Source: a virus
Strand: one strand, 5' to 3'
DNA length: 32,950 nt
IMG/VR virus record: IMGVR_UViG_3300020470_000107
Location: 1 to 32,950 of that record
Numbering within the stretch: the stretch's first letter is position 1; each line of letters opens with the position of its first letter. This document shows positions 1,317-26,765 of this stretch, one piece after another. The position numbers and the translations under genes are program-made. A model generated the notes under the pieces. That model had not been told where the DNA came from. It was given only the letters and a program-made list of their open reading frames with translations, and did no database searches.

Positions 1317-1822
1317 CTTTAAAAGAATATGCGGCAAAAGTTGATGTTCCTTATACGACCTTAATTCGATGGGCTGCTGCGGGTCGTTTGCCGAGTCTTA
1401 GGAAAAAAGGCAGGACATATATGATTTCTGACAAGGAAGCCTTGGACAGGGAGATAGAAGGCACTAAGTCGCCGGACAGAGGCGGCACAAGCGGCGCACC
1501 AGACCTAGAGGGTGCATTACGCAAACAAGAGGCAGATCAACGCGCTGTGCCTAGTTTTGCTAGGAGTCGTGCTATTCGGGAGGCTTTTACTGCTCGTTTA
1601 TGTGAGTTGGACTATCGATTGAAAAGTGAAAAGCTAGTGGATAAGGCTGAGATGAAGCTTCATTTAGCAAAGATGCACATGGGTTTAAGGGATTCTTTGA
1701 AGGCGATCCCTGATCGAGTAGCCCCAATTATTGCTGCTGAGACAGAGCAAACAAAAATCCACTCCATGCTTATGCGTGAGATTGGTTCAGCGTTGGAGAA
1801 TTTAAGTGGCAACAGCTATTGA
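1313..1822 (+). CDS. terminase small subunit, Nu1-like
   Basis: The N-terminal 45 residues (LKEYAAKVDVPYTTLIRWAAAGRLP, a MerR/Nu1-type helix-turn-helix) should bind the packaging start site. The rest is helical and charged, as expected for contact with the large subunit. At 169 aa it is close to lambda Nu1 (about 180 aa). It overlaps the methyltransferase by ATGA and the large terminase by 17 nt, which supports translational coupling. The pairing with a GpA-type large subunit suggests lambda-like packaging from a cos site, but no cos was identified. Family assignment rests on the HTH and position, not on strong motif identity. Confidence 0.75.
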   Translation: MTLKEYAAKVDVPYTTLIRWAAAGRLPSLRKKGRTYMISDKEALDREIEGTKSPDRGGTSGAPDLEGALRKQEADQRAVPSFARSRAIREAFTARLCELDYRLKSEKLVDKAEMKLHLAKMHMGLRDSLKAIPDRVAPIIAAETEQTKIHSMLMREIGSALENLSGNSY

Positions 1823-3686
1823 TGAATTAATTGACTATTCGCTTGAGTGTCTCCGTTTTGAAAAGGAGCTGACGGTAAGTCAATGGGCCGATGCTCATCG
1901 AATGCTTTCAAGTCGCGCTTCTTCAGAACCTGGATGTTGGAGAACGGAGAGAACTCCCTACCTCAGAGGAATAATGGATGCGTTGTCGGCATCAGATCCA
2001 ATTCAGCGTGTTGTCTTTATGAAAGGCGCGCAGTTGGGTGCGACAGAGGCTGGTAGCAATTGGCTTGGCTATATAATCTCCCACGCACCAGGACCTCTAC
2101 TTGCGGTTCAACCTACTGTCGAATTAAGCAAAAGATTATCGAAGCAGCGTCTTCAAAGCATGATTGATGATACTCCTTGTCTTTCAGAAAAGATTGCATC
2201 GCCAAGGTCGCGGGACTCAGGGAATACATTGTTCTCTAAAGAGTTCCCCGGTGGGATGATGCTTCTTACAGGAGCTAATAGTGCAGTTGGTCTTCGTTCT
2301 ACTCCTTGCCGTTATATTTTTCTGGACGAGGTGGATGCGTTTCCTACGGACGTGGAAGGGGAAGGCGATCCTGTAACGCTTGCTGAACGTAGATCGACAA
2401 CTTTCAGTCGCCGTAAAATCTTTATGGCAAGCACGCCGACAATAAAGGACTATTCGAGAATCGAGACGGAGTTCTTGTTAAGTGATCAAAGGTATTACCA
2501 CGTTCCTTGTCCTTCATGCGGTGCGATGGATTGGCTGAAGTGGCAGCAACTAAAAATGGAAGACGAAAAACCCTCAACTGTTAAATATGAATGTGAGCAT
2601 TGCCACGAGCGTTTTTCAGAATCGCATAAAACAGAACTTTTAAGTGCAGGACAATGGATACCAACAGCAGAAGGAGATGGCAAGACTGCAGGGTTTCATC
2701 TTTCGTCTTTATATAGTCCACTCGGTTGGAAATCATGGGAAGAGGTATGCGAGGACTTCCTGCGAAGTAAACACGATGCTCCAAGACTGAAAACTTGGGT
2801 TAATACAATCCTCGGAGAGACTTGGGAGGAGGATTATGCTTCGAAAGTTTCTGCCAATGCTCTTATGGAGCGTTGCGAGCATTACGAACCAGGCGTTATG
2901 CCAAAAGATAGTCTTGCTCTTACGGTAGGCGTTGACGTTCAGGACAATCGTTTAGCAATCTCTGTCTTTGCATGGCGTGGGCCATCAGATTGCGAGGAAG
3001 GATGGCTTCTATTTCACCAGGAAATTTATGGTGATCCTGGTAGACCCGAGATATGGAAACAGCTCGATGAAATTATTCTTCGTGAATGGCCTCATGAATC
3101 GGGTGCAAAGATAAGACCCGATGCAATAGCCATTGACTCTGGCGGACACTTTACTTCTGAGGTTTATCAGTATGCGAGACAAAGAGGTAGGCAGGGAGTT
3201 ATAGCTATTAAAGGTCAGTCGCAAAGAAACAAGCCAGCTATTGGTAGACCGACCAAAGTAGACGTTAATTACAAGGGCAGGTCGCTAAAGAAGGGTGCTC
3301 ATGTTTACCCAGTTGGGTCCGATACAATTAAAAACACTTTATTTTCTCGTTTGAAACATAACGAAGTAGGGCCAGGTTATTTGCATTTTCATATGTCTAC
3401 AACAGAGGAGTATTTCGAACAGCTGACTGCAGAGAAGCAAGTGATGCGATATAACCGAGGCGGTTTTGCACATAGGGAATGGATCAAAAAACCTAATGCT
3501 CGCAATGAGAGTCTCGATACCTTGGTATATGCGTATGCAGCCCTTTGCTCTATGTATATGCGTTATGACAGACGAACGGTATGGGATCAATTCTCTAAAA
3601 GAATATTAGAAGGGACTAATCCTAAGCAAAAGAAGCCTCTAAAATCTAAACAGCCCCTTAATAAGGGTTATATCAACCAATGGTGA
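1806..3686 (+). CDS. terminase large subunit, lambda GpA family
   Basis: This is the packaging motor ATPase and nuclease. N-terminal ATPase: Walker A-like FMKGAQLGATE around residues 71-81 and Walker B YIFLDEVD around 170-177, then the coupling motif MAST at 207-210. A zinc-finger-like pair follows, CPSC (235-238) and CEHC (263-266), typical of GpA-family proteins. The C-terminal nuclease has VGVDVQDN near 374-381 with acidic residues, then AIDSGGH, and DTLVYAYAAL near the end. Length 626 aa matches the family (lambda gpA 641 aa). It starts at GTG 1806, inside the small subunit gene, so translation is probably coupled. A short CCCTT/AAGGG inverted repeat lies in its last codons near 3655. Confidence 0.95.
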   Translation: MATAIDELIDYSLECLRFEKELTVSQWADAHRMLSSRASSEPGCWRTERTPYLRGIMDALSASDPIQRVVFMKGAQLGATEAGSNWLGYIISHAPGPLLAVQPTVELSKRLSKQRLQSMIDDTPCLSEKIASPRSRDSGNTLFSKEFPGGMMLLTGANSAVGLRSTPCRYIFLDEVDAFPTDVEGEGDPVTLAERRSTTFSRRKIFMASTPTIKDYSRIETEFLLSDQRYYHVPCPSCGAMDWLKWQQLKMEDEKPSTVKYECEHCHERFSESHKTELLSAGQWIPTAEGDGKTAGFHLSSLYSPLGWKSWEEVCEDFLRSKHDAPRLKTWVNTILGETWEEDYASKVSANALMERCEHYEPGVMPKDSLALTVGVDVQDNRLAISVFAWRGPSDCEEGWLLFHQEIYGDPGRPEIWKQLDEIILREWPHESGAKIRPDAIAIDSGGHFTSEVYQYARQRGRQGVIAIKGQSQRNKPAIGRPTKVDVNYKGRSLKKGAHVYPVGSDTIKNTLFSRLKHNEVGPGYLHFHMSTTEEYFEQLTAEKQVMRYNRGGFAHREWIKKPNARNESLDTLVYAYAALCSMYMRYDRRTVWDQFSKRILEGTNPKQKKPLKSKQPLNKGYINQW

Positions 3687-23164: not shown

Positions 23165-23569
23165 ATGTCACATTTCGCAAAAGTTGAAGACGGCAAAGTC
23201 ACCAACGTCATTGTCGCAGAACAGGAGTTTATTGATAAGCTGCCTGATAAAGACAAATGGGTTCAAACTTCATATAACACTTATGGAGGTAAACATTATG
23301 AACCTGATACTGATCCACCTAGAAAGTATATAAGTTCCGATAAAAAACCTCTTAGAAAAAACTATGCAGGTATTGGCTTTACATACGATAAAGATAAAGA
23401 TGCTTTCATCCCACCTCAACCTAATCCAAGTTGGAAATTAAACCCAGACAGTTGCTTATGGGAAGCACCTGTTCTTTTCCCTACTGATGGAAAAAACTAT
23501 TATTGGGATGAACCTTCTACATCTTGGAAAGAGATTACAGCAAATGGCTCTCTGCCACCTGAGCCTTAA
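23165..23569 (+). CDS. conserved cyanophage-type hypothetical protein
   Basis: 134 aa: MSHFAKVEDGKVTNVIVAEQ, then KWVQTSYNTYGGKHY, RKNYAGIGFTYDKDKDAFI, NPSWKLNPDSCLWEAP and YYWDEPSTSWKEI. This strand-rich W/Y-containing string is a family I recognise as common in marine T4-like cyanophages and pelagic phages, of unknown function. It lies directly after the fibre tip gene with a 4-nt gap, so a tail or virion role is likely. It may be a fibre-associated structural protein. Confidence 0.7.
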   Translation: MSHFAKVEDGKVTNVIVAEQEFIDKLPDKDKWVQTSYNTYGGKHYEPDTDPPRKYISSDKKPLRKNYAGIGFTYDKDKDAFIPPQPNPSWKLNPDSCLWEAPVLFPTDGKNYYWDEPSTSWKEITANGSLPPEP

Positions 23570-23709
23570 TTATGCTTTTGTACTTGGATTGAATAGCTAG
23601 ACCCGATTAAATATAAAGGCGTTAAACAAACTGTTAAACCTAAAACCATAAAAACCCCAACTGTTAAAGCTTTGAAGATTGCTTTTTGTACGGCGGCTTC
23701 TTCAAACAT
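23566..23709 (-). CDS. 47-aa single-pass membrane protein on opposite strand
   Basis: On the minus strand, ATG at 23709-23707 opens 47 codons ending TAA at 23568-23566. The product MFEEAAVQKAIFKALTVGVF... has one clear hydrophobic segment (about residues 13-36, LTVGVFMVLGLTVCLTPLYL) and a polar, charged end (SYSIQVQKHN). It fills the 180-base gap between the two rightward genes and its stop touches the end of the 23165 gene. It would be an unspecific small membrane protein, perhaps a holin-like or exclusion factor; no family recognised. No strong Shine-Dalgarno sequence is visible. Confidence 0.45.
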   Translation of the reverse strand: MFEEAAVQKAIFKALTVGVFMVLGLTVCLTPLYLIGSSYSIQVQKHN

Positions 23710-23748
23710 AAATTGTCTCTACTATGTAGACATATTAACTATTTTAAA

Positions 23749-23961
23749 ATGGTAAGGAAAATCTTAGACGGCGTGGCTGTTTTAGCCTTCTTACTTTCAG
23801 CAGGCTTGGCGGGCGGTTCTTACTTTGGTTATAAGTACGTGACTAGCCCACATGGTCAGGCAAAGATTAAGAAGGCTATCATGGGAGATCTTAAGAAGAT
23901 GATGCCATCGGCTATTGATAAAAAGCTCCCTAAAATGACAGGTCCGGCATTATCCCTTTAG
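23749..23961 (+). CDS. 70-aa membrane protein
   Basis: Start at ATG 23749 rather than at 23686, because the shorter form begins with a positively charged signal-anchor and one membrane helix (VAVLAFLLSAGLAGGSYFGY). The rest (VTSPHGQAKIKKAIMGDLKK, MMPSAIDKKLPKMTG) is basic and helical. The type resembles small single-pass proteins I recall from cyanophages near structural genes. The stop overlaps the next start (TAGTG). Possibly membrane-bound virion or lysis accessory protein; function unknown. Confidence 0.65.
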   Translation: MVRKILDGVAVLAFLLSAGLAGGSYFGYKYVTSPHGQAKIKKAIMGDLKKMMPSAIDKKLPKMTGPALSL

Positions 23962-24602
23962 TGGAAATACCTGAGATCAGGATTCCTGAGATAGAGGTTC
24001 CTTTTGTTTATGTTCCTTTTACCCCAACGCCTATAGATACTCCTGCTGTTATTCCTGGTTGTAGCTATCAACATAGAGATCAAAATTTAAATCCCAACCT
24101 TTTAATAGACGATCCTAATGGGGTCTATGCAACGTGTCCCGAAGGTGAGATTCCTCACTTTTGGCCTATGAATTACGATAAGGAAAACATAACAATTATA
24201 GAGGAGGAGCCGCCAACAGAACAGAAGCAGCCTCCGTTACCAGAAGCAGAAGAGCCCAAGATCCCTGATATACCAACAGAAGAAGAGGACGATCCTTTTG
24301 TTGAATGTCCTGGCGTTAACGATCAGAGGGTTGGCGACTTTCGTAACGATAAAAAACTGGAACGTGTCTCTGGACATCGCCTTTCTGAAGATGGGAAGAG
24401 ATGCATCACTGAATATGAATCAACTAACTTTGTTGAGCAGTTCATCCCTTCGGCTCCTGCTCTTGCTAATGCTGCTGCTATTGCTCTGGTTGCCGCCTCT
24501 GCTCCACTCCTACTTAATCTTGTCAAACCTATCGTGAAAAACTTAGTAAATAAGCTTACTGGGAAGAAGAAAGAGAATGACGATGAGGCAAAGTCTGATT
24601 AG
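23961..24602 (+). CDS. 213-aa Pro/Glu-rich protein with C-terminal membrane anchor
   Basis: GTG start overlapping the previous TAG. Residues 1-50 are an unusual alternating Pro/Ile/Glu/Val string (IPEIRIPEIEVPFVYVPFTP), then a compact section with PGCSYQHRDQNLNPNLLIDD, an acidic Pro/Glu linker (EEEPPTEQKQPPLPEAEEP), the segment LERVSGHRLSEDGKRCITEY, and a C-terminal hydrophobic helix (ALANAAAIALVAASAPLLLN) with a Lys-rich end. Similar domain order occurs in cyanophages as I remember. It could link membrane to virion or cell wall. Function unknown. Its last 47 nt overlap the convergent leftward gene. Confidence 0.65.
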   Translation: MEIPEIRIPEIEVPFVYVPFTPTPIDTPAVIPGCSYQHRDQNLNPNLLIDDPNGVYATCPEGEIPHFWPMNYDKENITIIEEEPPTEQKQPPLPEAEEPKIPDIPTEEEDDPFVECPGVNDQRVGDFRNDKKLERVSGHRLSEDGKRCITEYESTNFVEQFIPSAPALANAAAIALVAASAPLLLNLVKPIVKNLVNKLTGKKKENDDEAKSD

Positions 24603-25155
24603 GAGGAACAGTAACAACAACGTCTTCACAAACTACGGCATACTTGCTGCCTTTCTTGAAGGTCACGCCTAACTTGGCTTGCTTTGCACAGTGCTCCAGT
24701 AAATGAAGGGATATTTCTAGTCGAGTCTTTTTGTTTAGTAATTGTTGGTTCTCTATATTTATTCTTACAGCATCATGACAAAGATCGATGCCTCTCCCTA
24801 ATGGGATATTAAACTGCAAAGAGGCTCCGAGATTAGTTGAAAAATTCTCCTTTTCAAATCTGGGTGTTTCCTGAACATATTTAATGGCACCTGTGTCTTC
24901 GTTGTAGATATTCTGACGAGTCACATCAACTTTCGGTAAGGCATAAGTATGACCACTCGTGACGAAAGGACTGAAGGTAATACTTGGACCCACGCATTGG
25001 ATGCCTTGGGAATAACGATTAGTAGGCCAAAGACCCGGTGTAATCATTGTGGCGTTGTTATTTACAACCCCACTACTATTGCTTTGAGGAGAGGCGACAG
25101 TCGTGTTTGCATAAGCTTTTATCGGGATAAAAAATAATATTATTACTGACCAAAT
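24556..25155 (-). CDS. secreted or periplasmic protein with two-cysteine C-terminal domain (secretory island gene 4)
   Basis: Coding frame is clear; start is not. The signal peptide core SVIILFFIPIKAYA followed by NTTVASPQSN lies just after an ATT codon at 25155, and no ATG, GTG or TTG occurs in frame between 25314 and this point. The listed start is the ATT; the alternative is ATG 25314, which would put 53 hydrophilic residues before the signal peptide and overlap the previous gene by 172 nt. The mature part has QGIQCVGPSITFSPFVTSGH, LGASLQFNIPLGRGIDLCHD and LHLLEHCAKQAKLGVTFKKG, then YAVVCEDVVV. I recall this CVGPS...C...C...C family from cyanophages. Confidence 0.7.
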   Translation of the reverse strand: MWSVIILFFIPIKAYANTTVASPQSNSSGVVNNNATMITPGLWPTNRYSQGIQCVGPSITFSPFVTSGHTYALPKVDVTRQNIYNEDTGAIKYVQETPRFEKENFSTNLGASLQFNIPLGRGIDLCHDAVRINIENQQLLNKKTRLEISLHLLEHCAKQAKLGVTFKKGSKYAVVCEDVVVTVPPNQTLPHRHSLSSSQ

Positions 25156-25580
25156 ACGGAGATGCTTTCTGTAGTTGTTGTGGTAGTTATGGTTCTGGTT
25201 ACGTTTGTTATTGTCTCTAATCCTGGTGAGATCATTGTCTCTACCAGAGAGAAAGGTTGGCCTTCGTTTACAATTTCGAAACGAGGAGTTGTTTCCAATG
25301 AAGGTGAAGTCCAATTGAAGTTTACCCCATTAATTGTTTGTGTAGAGGTTGCAGTTGGAGTTGGGTTAATGTAAGTATCATTGGCTTTTATGTTATGTCC
25401 AGAAGCAGAATATGAATACCCTGTTCGATAATTATGGCTTGTAATTGTCTCATTAATTATACTTTCAGATGTAGAATTTGTGGTAAGTGTACCACTTCTG
25501 AACTGCGGAATTATAGGCGCAGCAAGGGATCTGGAACCTAATAAAGTAACTAATATCAATAGCCATTTAGTCAATTTCAA
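25143..25580 (-). CDS. secreted repeat-strand protein (secretory island gene 3)
   Basis: Start taken as TTG at 25580, because the resulting N-terminus MKLTKWLLILVTLLGSRSLA is a classical signal peptide with an SLAA cleavage site, and the longer frame from 25631 only adds hydrophobic residues read out of the previous gene. It is 145 aa with mature Thr/Ser/Asn-rich beta sequence: TTNSTSESIINETITSHNYR, TGYSYSASGHNIK, then FSLVETMISPGLETITNVTR and TTTTTTESISVFGQ. It resembles, as I remember, cyanophage proteins ending in a similar T-S-I-F string. It overlaps the upstream gene by 14 nt. Confidence 0.7.
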   Translation of the reverse strand: MKLTKWLLILVTLLGSRSLAAPIIPQFRSGTLTTNSTSESIINETITSHNYRTGYSYSASGHNIKANDTYINPTPTATSTQTINGVNFNWTSPSLETTPRFEIVNEGQPFSLVETMISPGLETITNVTRTITTTTTTESISVFGQ

Positions 25581-26085
25581 TGCTAACCGTTGTTGAACCG
25601 ATGCAGCTAGTACCACTGCCACCAGCAGCACAAGTGTGAACGCCGCTAGACAAAGAAGTCAGGGCAAGTGATCCAGCAGTTCCTCCTGATCCTAGAGTTG
25701 TCTGTCCACTAAGGACCGGCAAGGCTGCAATCCCAGAGCTAGGAGTGACAGCAGTAGGGGTAGAATCGCCTACAAATACCGATTCTGTTTTTGAAAACGC
25801 CGATCCAGCTGTAGTTATAGTTGTATCTGTCTGCAATAAGGCCGGGAGACCGTTGCTAAGCGAGCCAAGGTTCAGCCCTCCGATTTTCCCACTGGTAGTT
25901 GTGTCTCCAACGGTTACAGAAGGAGTGATGTTATTCCCTGAAAGGCTGTAGCTAGACCCTGCTCTGTTGGTCACTACATAAGGAGCCTCAATACTTATTT
26001 GAGCCGAGGTCCGATACTCAGCTCTTATATCTGCAAAGGCCGCAGGCGTTGTTAAAAATAAAGCGAATGGAAGGAGTCGTTTCAT
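25567..26085 (-). CDS. secreted Gly/Ser/Thr-rich protein (secretory island gene 2)
   Basis: 172 aa. MKRLLPFALFLTTPAAFA is a signal peptide with AFA-DI cleavage. The mature part begins RAEYRTSAQISIEAPYVVTN, RAGSSYSLSGNNITPS, then KIGGLNLGSLSNGLPALLQT and VFVGDSTPTAVTPSSG, a repetitive strand-rich sequence. It ends with a Cys-containing hairpin (VHTCAAGGSGTSCIGSTTV). ATGA overlap with the preceding holin-like gene. Similar signal peptide proteins are known to me in cyanophages. It could be periplasmic or cell-surface, with unknown function. Confidence 0.75.
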   Translation of the reverse strand: MKRLLPFALFLTTPAAFADIRAEYRTSAQISIEAPYVVTNRAGSSYSLSGNNITPSVTVGDTTTSGKIGGLNLGSLSNGLPALLQTDTTITTAGSAFSKTESVFVGDSTPTAVTPSSGIAALPVLSGQTTLGSGGTAGSLALTSLSSGVHTCAAGGSGTSCIGSTTVSIEID

Positions 26086-26522
26086 GCTTTCTTCGTGGGA
26101 GGGTTTGCAGGTGCTTCTACAATTTGTTGAATTTCTCCATCTGGTGATTGTATTTTAAGCGGAGTTTGTACACGTATAACTTGCTCACCAGCTGTTGCTT
26201 TGTTTGCAGCCATCATCTTTTCTATATCTTCTTTGGTTAGGCCTCCTCCATTTCCTTTGCCTTTGGAGGTGGTTAAGCCAAAACTGGAAAGTGCTCCAGT
26301 AAACACGCTGGCTATGAAGGTCGGGTCGAAGGTCTGCTTAGGAAAGCCTGGCAGGTCTATATACGCCAATGTGAGACAGAATCCTGACCAGATCACAATT
26401 CCCAAACGGACTGCAACACCGATGATTTGGATCTGTTCTTCCTTATCCGGTGTAATCTCCTGAAGCTTGTTTATTACACCTTTTTTCTTTTCAGGTGGCT
26501 TTTGAGGAGGCGTTTCGGTCAT
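26082..26522 (-). CDS. two-helix membrane protein, holin-like (secretory island gene 1)
   Basis: 146 aa. N-terminal soluble basic segment (PPQKPPEKKKGVINKLQEIT, PDKEEQIQ), then a membrane helix (IIGVAVRLGIVIWSGFCLTL), a loop with FPKQTFDP and a second weaker hydrophobic helix (PTFIASVFTGALSSFGLTTS), then a charged polar C-terminal tail with IQSPDGEIQQIVE. Two membrane segments with a charged tail is the class II holin pattern, but no other lysis gene is recognised. It heads the leftward operon. The GAGGAGG upstream lies about 36 nt before ATG, too far to be its ribosome binding site. Confidence 0.6.
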   Translation of the reverse strand: MTETPPQKPPEKKKGVINKLQEITPDKEEQIQIIGVAVRLGIVIWSGFCLTLAYIDLPGFPKQTFDPTFIASVFTGALSSFGLTTSKGKGNGGGLTKEDIEKMMAANKATAGEQVIRVQTPLKIQSPDGEIQQIVEAPANPPTKKA

Positions 26523-26576: not shown

Positions 26577-26765
26577 GTGAACGAGCTTATTGCTGCTTTA
26601 GTTTCAGGACTCTTTGTTTTTGGAGCGATGACAGTACGCAAAAACTCCGAGCTGACTAAGGAGATATTCCATCGACTGAACCGATTGGAAATAGCTCAAG
26701 CGAGACTTGAGGAGACAGTACGTCTACAAGGTCTTAATGAAAGAATCAGAAAAAGCAAAGCTTGA
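26577..26765 (+). CDS. 62-aa membrane protein
   Basis: GTG start. N-terminal membrane helix (NELIAALVSGLFVFGAMTVR) and a helical charged tail (TKEIFHRLNRLEIAQARLEE, then TVRLQGLNERIRKSK). It is divergent from the leftward holin-like gene and overlaps the following small gene by 29 nt. The topology (one N-terminal membrane helix then an amphipathic helix) resembles small phage membrane proteins such as spanin-like or holin accessory types, but no lipobox or motif supports a call. Confidence 0.55.
   Translation: MNELIAALVSGLFVFGAMTVRKNSELTKEIFHRLNRLEIAQARLEETVRLQGLNERIRKSKA

Follow-up and report, generated by a model that had tools for sequence, protein, structure and literature searches.

A cluster of hypothetical genes in T4-like cyanophages was described by Sullivan et al. 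(2010; PMC3037559), who found T4-GCs 218, 219, 234, 235 and 237 grouped together, often with a gene labelled "plasmid stability", in all 16 T4-like cyanophages except S-PM2, and who called the set "mobile hypothetical", a cassette with mobility signatures to which no function was assigned. Here we analyse the same families in a 32,950-nucleotide stretch of viral DNA (IMG/VR record IMGVR_UViG_3300020470_000107, positions 1 to 32,950; the window), where they form an island at 23566-26522. The families (T4-GCs 218, 234, 235, 236, 237 and 414) and their convergent layout are those of the Sullivan cluster, so that the T4-like part of the distribution was already known; the window differs in that DUF6450 stands at the start of the leftward operon, a 47-residue open reading frame (ORF) is added and T4-GC 219 was not found. 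The occurrence of the cassette in siphoviruses and podoviruses lies outside the T4-like set of that study. We propose, with a probability of about 0.6, that the island serves marine picocyanobacterial phages as a late module for host lysis and egress.

The leftward operon (minus strand) begins with DUF6450 (T4-GC 218, phrog_2714/721; 26082-26522; Pfam E 9e-28), followed by phrog_564 (T4-GC 237; 25567-26085; PHROG E 7e-34), phrog_650 or DUF6322 (T4-GC 236; 25143 to about 25574 from a probable TTG start; PHROG E 2e-37, Pfam E 1e-27) and phrog_1755/848 (T4-GC 235, Syn9 gp165; 24556-25173; PHROG E 3e-57). The rightward operon (plus strand) comprises phrog_568 (T4-GC 414, the bearer of the "plasmid stability" label; 23749-23961; PHROG E 5e-10) and phrog_570 (T4-GC 234; 23961-24602; PHROG E 2e-35), whose GTG start overlaps the stop codon of 568 (TAGTG). 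Six of the island ORFs have PHROG matches (E 5e-10 to 3e-57), and two of these also hit Pfam DUFs (DUF6322, DUF6450), so that they are genes and not chance ORFs; the matched PHROG families are either unassigned in function or doubtful in name. The initial annotation had read the island as seven ORFs, four leftward converging on two rightward plus a small one, each with a membrane segment or signal peptide and none with a known function, and all of this was borne out. One hydropathy rule detected a transmembrane (TM) or signal segment in six of the seven, and in the seventh, 564 (MKRLLPFALFLTTPAAFA), inspection by eye shows a short signal peptide; the same rule was passed by 6 of the 32 other genes of the window, mostly via segments within large proteins. 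The products of 650 and 564 are paralogues, as an iterated hidden Markov model (HMM) of each recovers the other.

The cassette is more widely distributed than described in the literature searched, being present in siphoviruses, two myovirus lineages and T7-like podoviruses. Searches of phage records by tblastn found 1755, the marker gene, in 410 to 454 records depending on the query, and hence in at least 454, 650 in 407 and DUF6450 in 429, the matching records being by name cyanophages or unnamed marine viruses. The convergent layout is found in the siphoviruses MED4-184/P-HS2 and MED4-117, in the T4-like Syn9 and S-SM1, and in the myovirus S-TIM5, whose DUF6450 sits elsewhere in the genome; in P-SSM2 the convergent core is retained, but DUF6450 is about 5 kb away. 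S-SM1 genes 163-169 are DUF6450, 568, T4-GC 219, 570, 1755, 650 and 564, in that order. In podoviruses the genes are co-directional, in the order 570p-6450-650-1755, with the small terminase gene next; here 570p is a relative of 570 (profile comparison probability 98.3%); 568 was not among the podovirus cassette genes recognised. When contigs with enough flanking sequence were counted, DUF6450 and the 564/650 pair lay upstream of 1755 in all 45 siphovirus-type contigs, the podovirus neighbours were present in all 64 podovirus contigs, and a small terminase gene followed within 1.5 kb downstream in 52 of 54. In 18 chosen records DUF6450 and 1755 occurred together in 10 and were both absent from 7, and the remaining one, S-CAM7, had only a divergent 1755-like gene. 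The initial annotation had pointed to related proteins in T4-like cyanophages; the PHROG and tblastn matches confirm this, and the same gene order does recur across myoviruses and siphoviruses.

Comparison of proteins identified the window phage as a structural relative of the cassette-less S-CBS3. It is no such relative of MED4-184, although the two have the cassette in common (29-70% identity). Furthermore, the 1755 protein of S-TIM5, a phage not placed in Kyanoviridae, falls within a clade with that of Syn9 (support 0.91). Judged by these comparisons the cassette has moved between unrelated phages, as the initial annotation had suggested. Since the DUF6450 protein of one contig (L090) is 85% identical to that of the window while its 1755 protein is only 36% identical, parts have been exchanged within the cassette too. 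The same mismatch was seen across L090, L093 and L106 (DUF6450 76-85%, 1755 34-39%), which points to recombination inside the cassette. There was no sign of a host-encoded version when 84,980 bacterial and archaeal genomes were scanned with one pattern; nearly all of the 15 matches had the phage-like cassette order, and they came from marine metagenome-assembled genomes, single cells and one isolate assembly.

The timing of expression is indicated by the myoviruses, where the cassette lies among replication genes, outside the structural region. A late-promoter motif, TAAATA, was present at -50 to -18 upstream of 564 in 56 of 62 myovirus loci, against 2.5 expected and at most 9 in simulations; for DUF6450 the count was 49 of 55, against 1.6 expected and at most 6. 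The motif was rare before the internal genes 570 (2/72) and 568 (3/63) and absent before regA (0/13). It had been calibrated on S-PM2, where 11 of 14 structural genes have it no more than 60 bases upstream, against 1 of 16 other genes. Both myovirus operons therefore look late. The 3' ends of the convergent 570 and 1755 genes overlap (24556-24602 in the window). Among the myovirus loci (our L164-L243) 76 of 77 show such an overlap, the median being 104 nt, as do 35 of 86 loci of siphovirus type; with two late operons, complementary transcripts would arise.

The position of the cassette relative to known lysis genes also bears on its role. In T7, the holin gene 17.5 occupies the slot before gene 18 (small terminase) and Rz/Rz1 (18.5/18.7) lie just past gene 18. 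In P-SSP7 four of the cassette genes are located between the tail fibre gene and the small terminase gene, thereby sharing the position of the T7 locus, with a two-TM protein first and exported proteins after; no sequence similarity to the T7 proteins was found, however, and the cassette is without a lipobox o-spanin. The same slot holds an annotated endolysin and small TM proteins in the cassette-less P60, and two small proteins in Syn5. The window and S-CBS3 are collinear from the small terminase gene to a tail-fibre gene, and rusA, an exonuclease and an ATPase gene are also common to both; the region between these blocks encodes small TM proteins and a GH24 endolysin in S-CBS3, but additional tail-fibre genes and the cassette in the window. 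Thus the endolysin modules of S-CBS3 (gp20-23) and P60 (gp37-39) occupy the place of the cassette, while the lysins of S-PM2 (p157), in which no cassette was detected by HMM and a GH24 lysin is present, and of ACG-2014f replace it in gene content. These modules encode a peptidoglycan hydrolase, and the cassette encodes none that is recognisable. In addition, some cassettes are linked to endolysin genes. In DSL-LC03, two annotated endolysins (one belonging to GH24) lie about 2 kb from a full cassette. Among the 33 podovirus contigs that extend 3 kb downstream, 9 have a GH24 endolysin beyond the small terminase gene. DUF6450 lies near an endolysin gene in DSL-LC03 and some podoviruses, but not in most cassette phages.

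Gene content, order and distribution, signal and TM segments, paralogy, the myovirus late-promoter motifs, the endolysin slots and some endolysin linkage are all seen directly, and from these we infer the biochemical roles, topology and assembly of the cassette proteins. The DUF6450 copy in the window has a hydrophobic helix at residues 33-51 and a second, weaker one; its homologues in P-SSP7 and Syn9 have two TM segments, and among 279 homologues a simple rule assigned two segments to 165 and one to 112. DUF6450 may therefore be regarded as a candidate holin that would end the infection and release the endolysin where such a gene exists. The 570 protein is rich in proline (13%) and has four cysteines, with a C-terminal TM segment at 161-179 of its 213 residues as found in u-spanins, and then a Lys-rich tail, while 568 has an N-terminal TM segment as in i-spanins and a short tail (one TM segment in 144 of 148 homologues). 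Both would sit in the inner membrane, with 570 reaching into the periplasm. As a single-TM protein of 70-90 residues, 568 has no Pfam domain to back the "plasmid stability" label. The remaining three proteins carry signal peptides and would be exported to the periplasm or the outer membrane. Of these, 564 is Ser/Thr/Gly-rich, 650 contains 32% Ser+Thr, and 1755 has invariant cysteines at 60, 132, 162 and 182 and may be stabilised by disulphides. An AlphaFold2 model of 650 has a long beta-hairpin with strands at 26-48 and 116-139 (mean predicted local distance difference test score, pLDDT, 84.8; predicted template modelling score, pTM, 0.48), and that of 1755 a beta-rich part and a 40-residue helix (pLDDT 74.7, pTM 0.43). 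These structural points are suggestive only, and it is possible that 650 and 564 assemble through long beta-hairpins.

Together, 570, 568 and the exported trio would breach the outer membrane, performing the spanin job without a lipobox lipoprotein. The proposed function is thus like that of the spanins (Rz/Rz1; T1 gp11), namely disruption of the outer membrane, but spanins use one lipoprotein whereas the cassette has three exported non-lipoproteins. In a survey of spanins in 677 phages (PMC6139136) about 20 cyanophages were listed as spanin-less, with many of the cassette phages among them; the other explanation offered by the authors was a fragile host outer membrane. In its fullest form our proposal would be an exit apparatus that spans the envelope of picocyanobacteria, is specific to that envelope and is common to siphoviruses, myoviruses and podoviruses. 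It would be made of two or three inner-membrane proteins, an exported hairpin paralogue pair and a disulphide protein, and would do without lipobox spanins and, in some phages, without an endolysin that can be recognised. We put forward this specific form only tentatively, and consider it less likely than not.

Several observations weigh against a lysis role. Most cassette phages have no endolysin adjoining the cassette. No endolysin was seen among the Pfam matches listed for P-HS2 (63 proteins), nor by Pfam in the 41 P-SSP7 proteins scanned, a set that omits several of the named genes for replication, capsid and metabolism, which implies that the enzyme is hidden or that a cassette protein supplies it. 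DSL-LC02 and DSL-LC03 carry both cassette and endolysin, and Syn5 carries neither. The cassette-less ACG-2014f, S-SRM01 and S-CREM1 do have a GH24 lysin, but this contrast between cassette and lysin is biased because all three were found via a lysin search. The lipobox search gave 0 to 3 chance-level matches per family among 120-494 homologues each; this lowers the likelihood that any member is a spanin, but not that it performs the spanin job. No known fold was recognised for 1755, which had no significant match in the PDB, and its significant named matches in BFVD were phage proteins of its own family. The nearest PDB shapes to 650 were pore stems and phage collars (Z 3.0 or less, root-mean-square deviation 4.9-7.5; not significant), with a best Foldseek E of 0.005. 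Finally, late expression alone would equally fit structural proteins. As for other class assignments, no clear homology of cassette members to spanins, endolysins or tail fibres was found. A strict either/or relation between cassette and GH24 endolysin was also considered and was rejected, given DSL-LC02, DSL-LC03 and Syn5.

The nearest alternative is that one exported protein, most likely 1755, attacks peptidoglycan or its synthesis, making the set a complete lysis system. The lack of an endolysin domain in the cassette phages P-SSP7 and P-HS2 fits this, as does the endolysin carried instead by cassette-less relatives, but 1755 matches no hydrolase family or fold, no cassette member has a Pfam match to a peptidoglycan-hydrolase family, and DSL-LC02, DSL-LC03 and some podoviruses carry cassette and endolysin together. 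We consider it doubtful, while noting that its likelihood partly overlaps that of the lysis and egress module, since a peptidoglycan-active variant is also a lysis reading. Exported proteins might instead act late in infection on the envelope of the host, remodelling or coating it so as to block, for instance, re-adsorption or sibling superinfection, rather than lyse the cell. Signal peptides, Ser/Thr-rich mature parts and membrane anchors are consistent with such a role, and restriction to picocyanobacterial phages would suit a host-surface target. Exclusion genes such as T4 imm are early, however, whereas both myovirus operons have late-type promoters, and neither the occupied endolysin slots nor the endolysin linkage would be expected. 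Envelope remodelling is therefore unlikely in our view. Of the roles offered by the initial annotation (envelope modification, superinfection exclusion or lysis), lysis is thus favoured, and superinfection exclusion is disfavoured because of the late-type promoters on both myovirus operons and the occupied endolysin slots.

The late promoters would be equally at home before genes for virion components, and if the N-terminal segments were not export signals the secreted-looking proteins could be tail or head decorations. In siphoviruses and podoviruses the cassette directly follows the tail fibre genes, and 650 weakly resembles phage collar proteins in shape. This explanation would nevertheless leave the inner-membrane partners 570, 568 and DUF6450 unexplained, the myovirus genes are outside the structural region, and the S-TIM5 record marks other genes, not those of the cassette, as virion proteins; on balance it too seems improbable. 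The virion labels in the S-SM1 GenBank record were also considered but are uninformative, as a gene detected by mass spectrometry is also named hypothetical there. The mobile-cassette idea, put forward in PMC3037559 and restated in PMC9602691, would have the set maintained via the "plasmid stability" gene with no joint envelope function. The horizontal spread that it calls for is real, but 568 is a single-TM protein without a maintenance domain and is missing from the podovirus cassette genes recognised, making this explanation highly improbable.

Few viruses in the ocean are as numerous as the phages of Prochlorococcus and Synechococcus, whose lysis genes are largely unassigned. If the cassette is indeed their exit system, this gap would be filled for three phage morphotypes together, with named candidate genes. 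It would also correct the "plasmid stability" label of 568, on which ideas about gene mobility and pseudolysogeny in the literature rest (PMC3037559, PMC9602691).

Beside the island, a divergent gene of uncertain role (26577-26765, plus strand, GTG start) encodes a 62-residue product with an N-terminal TM segment and a charged helix; it has homologues in 60 loci, mostly beside DUF6450 in related contigs, and comparison of its profile with the P60 gp38 family, from the lysis slot of P60, gave a probability of 26%. A pair of small membrane proteins recurs beside cyanophage endolysins or cassettes (P60 gp38-39, L150; Syn5 gp47-48, L149; S-CBS3 gp20-21, L160; and L334, L335 and L325), one having a TM segment and a charged helix and the second being a TM protein with an ASEVIG-LKxN-like motif. 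This may be another holin-type pair. In S-PM2 (L153, 116286-118229) a GH24 lysin, an RlpA-like protein and a protein with a lipobox-like sequence are encoded close together, a possible classical lysis set. At the opposite end of the island, the 47-residue single-TM ORF (23566-23709, minus strand) belongs to a subset of siphovirus cassettes; related contigs hold 13 weak homologues of it (E about 4e-4 to 8e-4), placed beside 568 in an unchanged layout. The extra myovirus member, T4-GC 219, is represented by Syn9 gp163 (L004:10846-11481), which has an N-terminal TM segment and a Gly/Ala-rich hydrophobic C-terminus ending in cysteine. A near-identity search of the window among phages gave no match. 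For the large terminase of the window (1806-3686), the nearest relatives in the phage collection are terminases from Wolbachia WO and Rhodobacter phages, at 47-49% identity, whereas the head and tail genes are collinear with those of S-CBS3.

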